Shown here one piece after another: positions 35,011 through 37,194 of a DNA stretch of 64,000 nucleotides; position 1 is the first letter of the stretch; every line of letters begins with the position of its first letter. A program made the position numbers and the translations under genes. Where the stretch lies: assembly GCA_028344575.1 (NCBI GenBank), contig JAOMBO010000004.1, positions 1 to 64,000 on the forward strand, given 5' to 3'. Below the pieces are notes generated by a model. It had not been told where the DNA came from and made no database searches. It saw only the letters and a list, made by a program, of their open reading frames with translations. This DNA comes from Candidatus Nitrosopelagicus sp. (GTDB lineage: Archaea; Thermoproteota; Nitrososphaeria; Nitrososphaerales; Nitrosopumilaceae).

Positions 35011-35841
35011 TTGGAAAACGCTACTGTTAGTTATATTCAATTACTACGAGAAGATTTAGCTATATTTCGAGTGGTTCCTGAAGGTCCTTTTCCTGAATAC
35101 AAAGCAGGTCAGTTTCTCACTTTAGGACTACCTGTAAAAAGTGAAAATAATCGTGTAATCAATCGTGCATATTCAATTGCATCTCATCCTGAAAATAAAA
35201 AATATATCGAGTTTGTCATTCGGTGGGTAAGAAAACCATATCCTGGAAGATTAACCACTGCAATGTTTAATCTAAAAGAAGGTGATCCAATTCAATGGAG
35301 AAAAGCTAATGGCACTCTTACAATTAATGACAAATTACCAAACGGTGAACCTGACAAACGAAGAATTGTCTGTATCGGGGGTGGAACCGGATTGGCACCG
35401 TTTGTTAGTTTTGCCCAACATCTTCATGATGTAGGAGATAAGCGTGAACTTGTTGTTTTACACGGAGCAAGTTACGTTGATGAACTAAGTTACAGAGAAC
35501 GTTTGACGGATTTAGAACTTGAAAGTATTGATAGAGGTACGGACAAATGGAATTTCAAATATCGAGCAGCAATTAGTAGACCACAAGAATGGCTAAATCG
35601 TTCTTGGACTGGACAGGTGGGAAGAGTAGAACAATTTCTAAGAGCAAGACCTGGACAAATATCTCCATTAGAAGAATTAGTTGGTGAAAAAATTACACAA
35701 GAAAATACCATGTTTTACATTTGTGGATGGCAAGGAACAATTGATGGAACCTTGGATTATCTTGGAAATAAAGAGTTTGTAACAGAGAGAAACAAACGCG
35801 AAGATGGTAGTTACGAAGTTAAATTCGAATCTTACGGATAA
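35011..35841 (+). CDS. Ferredoxin/flavodoxin-NADP+ reductase family protein
   Basis: NRAYSIASHPENKKYIEFVIRWV; CIGGGTGLAPFVSFAQHL; FYICGWQGTIDG. Confidence 0.88.
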   Translation: MENATVSYIQLLREDLAIFRVVPEGPFPEYKAGQFLTLGLPVKSENNRVINRAYSIASHPENKKYIEFVIRWVRKPYPGRLTTAMFNLKEGDPIQWRKANGTLTINDKLPNGEPDKRRIVCIGGGTGLAPFVSFAQHLHDVGDKRELVVLHGASYVDELSYRERLTDLELESIDRGTDKWNFKYRAAISRPQEWLNRSWTGQVGRVEQFLRARPGQISPLEELVGEKITQENTMFYICGWQGTIDGTLDYLGNKEFVTERNKREDGSYEVKFESYG

Positions 35842-35860
35842 TAAATTTCTGTGTCATATT

Positions 35861-35897
35861 ACGGCGTTTAACAAAACAGATCAGTCGTATATACTAG
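35861..35897 (+). promoter_or_regulatory. Duplicated promoter element, copy 1 (contains GTATATAC TATA-like core)
   Basis: ACGGCGTTTAACAAAACAGATCAGTCGTATATACTAG; 36/37 identical to 36040-36076; ATG exactly 54 nt after repeat start. Confidence 0.9.
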
Positions 35898-35914
35898 ATT
35901 CACTTGTCAAGGAC

Positions 35915-36010
35915 ATGGGTTCAATTGATTTAGGACATACCGAAAATGAATGGGGTTCAAAGAAAAAAAAGAGATCTGTAATTATAGCATATGATGTTTT
36001 AGAAAAATAA
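35915..36010 (+). CDS. 31-aa microprotein controlled by duplicated promoter
   Basis: MGSIDLGHTENEWGSKKKKRSVIIAYDVLEK*; ATG spacing to promoter repeat identical to the ferritin gene. Confidence 0.65.
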   Translation: MGSIDLGHTENEWGSKKKKRSVIIAYDVLEK

Positions 36011-36039
36011 TTTTTTTTAAAATATTACTCTGTTATACT

Positions 36040-36076
36040 ACGGCGTTTAACAAAACAGATTAGTCGTATATACTAG
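36040..36076 (+). promoter_or_regulatory. Duplicated promoter element, copy 2 (upstream of ferritin-like gene)
   Basis: ACGGCGTTTAACAAAACAGATTAGTCGTATATACTAG; ATG exactly 54 nt after repeat start. Confidence 0.9.
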
Positions 36077-36093
36077 TATTACGTTATCGGCTT

Positions 36094-36576
36094 ATGGGCA
36101 AAAAGAATATTGAAATTGCTGGAGCTGCAGAAGGAACAATCGAAATGCTAAAAAAAGCATATGCATTAGAAATGTCCGCATTTCATTACTGGTTTTACAT
36201 TGATCAGTATGCAGAAGGATTGGGATTCTTGCACAGTGATTTCTATTCAGAAAGTGCTAACGACGAGTTAGAACATGCAAAAAAAGTTGCATTGAGATTG
36301 GATCAGTTGGGAGCAAAAGCAACCGACAATCCACAAGACTGGGCAGAAGTTTCTGGACTAGGAAACTTGGAACCTGGTAACCATGTTACATTGCGAAGTG
36401 CATTAGAATATGCACTTGAATTCGAAAGAACTGCAATAGAACATTATAACGAACTTGCAAGTAGCACTCAAGGAAAAGACCACATAACATACCATCTCGC
36501 ACTAGACTTGGTAACTGATGAAGCAAAAGACGAACAAGACATCGAAGACATACTAGACAAACTGGAAATTTCCTAA
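36094..36576 (+). CDS. Dps-like / bacterioferritin-like ferritin superfamily protein
   Basis: LKKAYALEMSAFHYWFYID..ESANDELEHAKKVALRLDQLGA..EYALEFERTAIEHYNEL..ALDLVTDEAKDEQD di-iron ligand pattern. Confidence 0.87.
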   Translation: MGKKNIEIAGAAEGTIEMLKKAYALEMSAFHYWFYIDQYAEGLGFLHSDFYSESANDELEHAKKVALRLDQLGAKATDNPQDWAEVSGLGNLEPGNHVTLRSALEYALEFERTAIEHYNELASSTQGKDHITYHLALDLVTDEAKDEQDIEDILDKLEIS

Positions 36577-36594: not shown

Positions 36595-36840
36595 TTATTT
36601 GGATTTTGGTTTTTGTGATTCTTTTGGATGTTTTCTTGGTAAATCTAATCCCACTACACTCATCATAGATTCTCCAATTGGTTCATAAATCGATTTGAGT
36701 GATTCTTCATCATAATATTTTGCAATCTCGTGTAATTTTGCTTCAATCTTTTTTTGTTCTATGCGAATCAAAATACTTCTTGCGATGAGCGCTTTTAATT
36801 CGTCAATCTTATTTTCTGGTATTGTATTTTTTGTTTTCAT
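36595..36840 (-). CDS. Hypothetical helical protein
   Basis: Complete ORF, 81 aa. Confidence 0.6.
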   Translation of the reverse strand: MKTKNTIPENKIDELKALIARSILIRIEQKKIEAKLHEIAKYYDEESLKSIYEPIGESMMSVVGLDLPRKHPKESQKPKSK

Positions 36841-36842
36841 GA

Positions 36843-37040
36843 TTAAGGTGCATCTCGAACTTTCACTACGGAGCCATATGTGAGCTGAATCTCATTTAGT
36901 GAATATTTGATAGTCTCTAATGGGTCCAACATGTGTTCGTCAGCATCGCAAATGAAAATTGGAAGTTCTTCTTCTACTTCACTCTCAATTTCAGATATTT
37001 GTTTCATGTTCGTTTGAACTTCTTTTCTAACATAAATCAA
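36843..37040 (-). CDS. Hypothetical acidic protein (may start at internal Met, MKQISEIE)
   Basis: Complete ORF 2 nt upstream of 36840 start. Confidence 0.55.
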   Translation of the reverse strand: MIYVRKEVQTNMKQISEIESEVEEELPIFICDADEHMLDPLETIKYSLNEIQLTYGSVVKVRDAP

Positions 37041-37194
37041 ATTGTTATTCTAAGATCTTGTTCTAAAGTTATCAAATCAAACTCTTATGGATGATTGATA
37101 AACAAAATCTTTTGATCGCGTGATACGTCTGCTATATAGTTGCCATATAGTACACGTAGATCATTGTTAACTTCAAAATTTTATTTTATTTGTT

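Follow-up and report, generated by a model that had tools for sequence, protein, structure and literature searches.

The DNA analysed here is a window of 64,000 nucleotides from a Candidatus Nitrosopelagicus sp. contig. On its forward strand, a 37-bp sequence occurs twice, at 35861-35897 (copy 1) and 36040-36076 (copy 2), with a single C/T difference between the copies. Each copy is followed by a 17-nt spacer (35898-35914 and 36077-36093) and then by an ATG (35915 and 36094), which lies 54 nt from the start of its own repeat. The first ATG opens a 31-aa open reading frame (MGSIDLGHTENEWGSKKKKRSVIIAYDVLEK; 35915-36010, stop codon 36008-36010), and a tract of eight T residues (36011-36018) stands directly 3′ of its stop codon; promoter, gene and probable terminator together make up a unit of 179 bp. 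The second ATG opens a gene for a 160-aa protein of the ferritin superfamily (36094-36576; PF00210, E 1e-17). On the reverse strand, the same cassette continues with the gene of an 81-aa protein convergent with the ferritin gene (36595-36840), which matches nothing in Pfam or NCBIfam, and with that of a small protein (36843-37007; 54 aa from an ATG at 37007). A first-pass annotation had described the near-identical repeats, the equal distances, the 31-aa frame and the ferritin assignment, all of which were found as described; the features lie where it placed them, while its span was a few bases off, the full unit being 35861-36576.

The repeat does not arise readily by chance (no match to the 37-mer in 100 shuffles) and is present as a pair in seven genomes. 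A search of the whole assembly for the 37-mer, which the first-pass annotation had proposed, returned these two copies only (assembly 65.8% complete), and a third site of the 21-bp upstream block was not found at up to 3 mismatches in the same 856-kb assembly.

Archaeal leaderless promoters with BRE/TATA elements and an upstream regulator site are a known design. The locus resembles them in having a TATA element near -27 relative to the start codon and a regulator-like site directly upstream, but differs in that the whole 37-bp element is duplicated side by side, each gene having its own copy, and that the copies are homogenised. The distance from repeat start to ATG is 54 nt in every one of the 15 copies, which come from eight genomes, and the spacers keep a constant length while differing at up to 9 of 17 positions between genomes. 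TATATA (35888-35893 and 36067-36072) starts at -27 in both copies. Since TATA-like words upstream of 32 other genes in the window peak at -30 to -27, leaderless starts look normal in this window. The proposal of a duplicated leaderless TATA promoter is well supported. The TATA-ATG distance agrees with that of other window genes, and transcription would start at or beside the ATG in both units. Upstream of TATA, the block ACGGCGTTTAACAAAAC (35861-35877 and 36040-36056) is identical in 15 of 15 copies and has an imperfect symmetry, CGTTT-AACA-AAACg. It occupies -54 to -38, a common binding position of archaeal activators, and is probably an activator or regulator site. In addition, a tract of seven or eight T residues follows the microgene stop in every genome with the cassette and probably ends the microgene transcript as a U-tract terminator of the archaeal type. 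Because each gene has its own promoter with fixed spacing and a T-tract follows the first stop codon, each looks like its own transcription unit. A separate observation concerns the spacers in genomes G000 and G021 (L068), which differ at 5/17 and 4/17 positions, respectively; the microgene differs at 0/96 and the ferritin gene at 6/480 (Fisher p 3e-8 for spacers vs. genes). This marks a burst of change where the two promoters initiate transcription. In the open-access literature, no paper was found on this locus, on transcription start site maps of Nitrosopelagicus, or on the microprotein family described below.

Conservation of the microprotein frame could be confirmed: the 31-aa frame occurs in 10 of 31 genomes of the genus. 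In seven of these (G000, G001, G012, G016, G018, G021 and G030) the gene lies between the two repeats, ahead of the same ferritin, and in the other three (G011, G022 and G023) it is found at other loci, without repeat or ferritin. Nei-Gojobori counts gave dN/dS values of 0.08-0.74, below 1 in all computable pairs, and the deficit of nonsynonymous changes was significant in four of seven pairs tested (G000-G023, p = 0.0009; G012-G023, p = 0.0003; G023-G011, p = 0.007; G000-G001, p = 0.03). Judged by these substitution patterns, the 31-aa open reading frame is real and under purifying selection. In G030, an in-frame stop just 5′ of the ATG excludes an upstream extension of the gene. The core motif of the peptide is lost in this genome (EYAENKLD) with the frame still open, and selection was not significant for the G000-G030 pair (p = 0.41), so the microprotein may be dispensable there.

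Across the class, a profile search detected members of the wider family in 56 of the 300 genomes, spread over eight genera of one archaeal family, which is Nitrosopumilaceae according to the named relatives. The GHT..EWG core is invariant in an alignment of 21 members, and the window microprotein combines this GHTxxEWG core with an I.AYD end within one short frame. Relatives share the core, a Lys-rich stretch and the C-terminal I.AYD; those outside the genus differ in being usually 45-57 aa long, with an N-terminal PKFxW..SE segment, and in having a TTGCA..TGCAA element upstream in place of the ferritin-type block. No Pfam or NCBIfam model matches the microprotein, even at E 10, and GHTxxEWG is an undescribed, lineage-specific microprotein family. 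In other genera (loci L045, L053-L057 and L180), the TTGCA..TGCAA inverted repeat lies just 5′ of a TATA-like word near -28, and in some genomes the family gene shares its intergenic region with a divergent winged-helix-type gene, a neighbour that recurred in five fetched loci. A search for a regulon of the TTGCA element yielded a handful of matches only. Neighbours gave no indication of microprotein function, as there was no fixed partner across genera, and in the loci read elsewhere the family was not found near a ferritin. In G001, a genome that is 99% complete, the cassette copy is the sole convincing member of the family, and the winged-helix gene has no close relative there, only a paralogue at 36%. 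Since relatives occupy other loci under an unrelated promoter and G001 has the cassette copy only, the microgene appears to have been relocated, and we infer from this distribution its capture under the ferritin promoter as well as the direction of the move. In a Nitrosopumilus MAG with an 83% identical ferritin (L050), the microgene stands at another locus, contains an in-frame TAG, lacks an ATG and is apparently decaying.

With regard to the ferritin, the best PDB matches are DPS/DPSL chains (7stw, 2vzb and 2clb; E 1e-11 to 3e-6), and profile and PDB matches span residues 12-157. The protein falls short of the NCBIfam cut-offs for archaeal DPS and DPSL (NF040955/NF009990), with 54.1 bits vs. 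250 and 52.6 vs. 158. It differs from DPSL in lacking the cysteine pair near the diiron centre; it contains no cysteine at all, the aligned positions being Gly and Thr, and Asp aligns where the last His ligand is expected. By homology, it would be classed as Dps-like, with DPSL as the nearest group. The missing cysteines and the Asp for His point to a possible divergent metal site in the product of 36094-36576. The closest ferritin outside the genus (G163, 83% identity) is accompanied by neither the repeat nor an adjacent microgene.

The cassette comprises repeat, microgene, repeat and ferritin gene together with the two small convergent genes. In five genomes it is located between a gene for an FAD/NAD-binding reductase and a PhoU_div/PiT pair; among these, G020 is without the first repeat and the microgene. 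In G001 the left flank of the cassette differs, and in G030 the cassette is inverted and lies beyond PiT. In G014 the same junction is empty and the flanking proteins are 98-99% identical. By this comparison of sites, the ferritin cassette is accessory. Two further observations were made at its borders. The reductase 3′ end and following spacer (TCTTAYGGATRAT...) occur on both sides of the cassette (35829-35845 and 37083-37103), as if insertion had duplicated its target, and a single copy is present at the empty site of G014. Also, the PhoU_div/PiT phosphate genes are preceded by CTATATAGTTGCCATATAG (37132-37150), which is nearly unchanged in the inspected genomes of the genus and is kept even where the flanks differ; it is a candidate phosphate-regulon operator.

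The two repeat copies change in step by lineage (CAGATCAGTCG / CGGATCAGTCG / ATCAGCTG), and copy 1 of G001 carries 18 bp of the upstream flank of copy 2, an additional stretch of identity between them. Such patterns reflect concerted evolution of the copies, probably by gene conversion. In G020 (AH-558-C08), the single repeat is bordered by copy 1's left flank and copy 2's right flank; these flanks differ from the window at 0/2500 and 2/2500 positions, and exactly the 179-bp unit is missing. Recombination between the repeats has apparently deleted the unit in AH-558-C08, although, if this is a single-cell genome, as the AH-558 assemblies seem to be, the absence may be an amplification artefact between direct repeats.

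The upstream block was also searched for as the mark of a regulon, using the 17-bp block at up to 2 mismatches in the 31 genomes of the genus with the reversed pattern as control. Outside the cassette, all sites fell within or close to coding sequence, apart from those that preceded a tRNA in two genomes, and their rate was about that of the reversed control, which argues against a regulon. As the block stands at no other promoter, no regulon names the inducing signal, and the earlier suggestion of an operator for iron or oxidative stress is a guess. A viral origin was considered and rejected: viral contigs contained no match to the 37-mer and a ferritin relative at 24% identity only.

Taken as a whole, the locus likely consists of two independent tandem transcription units with the same promoter, co-expressed through promoter sharing. 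This reading draws on the duplication, the spacing, the coding conservation, the different loci and promoters of relatives, and the exact absence of the unit from one assembly. Briefly, each 37-bp copy would provide a regulator site and a TATA box at -27 that direct a leaderless start at or next to the ATG. The first unit would yield an mRNA of about 100 nt for the 31-aa microprotein, ending in the T8 tract, and the second would yield the Dps-like ferritin, so that a common promoter could co-induce both products without an operon. Such an arrangement may have arisen by tandem duplication of the ferritin promoter and capture of a microgene from the Nitrosopumilaceae family, after which recombination between the copies would keep them alike by conversion and sometimes delete the 179-bp unit. 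The anatomy of the locus thus points to co-expression and to genetic instability. Iron or oxidative stress as the signal is a guess, and so is a microprotein that helps or tunes the response of the ferritin; a role tied to that response is plausible and rests on adjacency, which is weak evidence for a functional link because it may stem from one event.

It is possible, if somewhat unlikely, that the microprotein is a passive passenger in a duplicated ferritin promoter, expressed there without taking part in the ferritin response and kept for a conserved function of its own. The absence of ferritins near family members in the other loci read, a capture that looks like a single event, and the near-identical strain assembly without the microgene all agree with such a passenger; yet seven of the eight genus genomes with the ferritin keep the microgene and the same promoter, despite up to 9% divergence of ferritin DNA, and both promoter copies change in step. 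A bolder extension of the two-unit reading, offered here as speculation, treats the repeats as a built-in recombination module by which a population would alternate, through exact loss of the 179-bp unit, between ferritin alone and ferritin accompanied by a co-induced microprotein, conversion locking both promoters to one regulator and the microprotein acting as a ferritin-response modulator of a new family. Still less probable is an upstream unit that functions as a cis-acting leader, in which transcription from promoter 1 across the small frame would tune promoter 2 by interference, attenuation or titration of a regulator on a decoy site, the peptide itself being unimportant. Two promoters in tandem, 179 bp from each other and with the same upstream block, would suit this role, as would G030, where the peptide core has decayed and the promoter copy and frame remain. 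However, the amino acids are conserved, and substitutions biased towards synonymous ones, across loci whose promoters are unrelated, which indicates that the peptide matters in general, and the T8 tract separates the units. Finally, a mobile or dispersed element unrelated to promoters is very improbable: the accessory nature of the cassette and its varying position would fit such an element, but dispersed copies were looked for and not found (two copies only in the assembly, none in viral contigs and none at other protein-gene promoters), and the repeat keeps a fixed distance of 54 nt to each of two unrelated start codons, its TATA standing where a TATA box is expected.

If the locus operates as two units under one promoter, it would represent a very compact design for co-regulation in a group of ammonia oxidisers that is among the most abundant in the ocean, and it adds a lineage-specific microprotein family absent from Pfam and NCBIfam. 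Capture of the microgene under a stress-type promoter, with sister lineages still showing the other promoter of the family, would provide a clean natural experiment for studying the recruitment of small genes into a regulatory unit and the homogenisation or loss of duplicated promoters.
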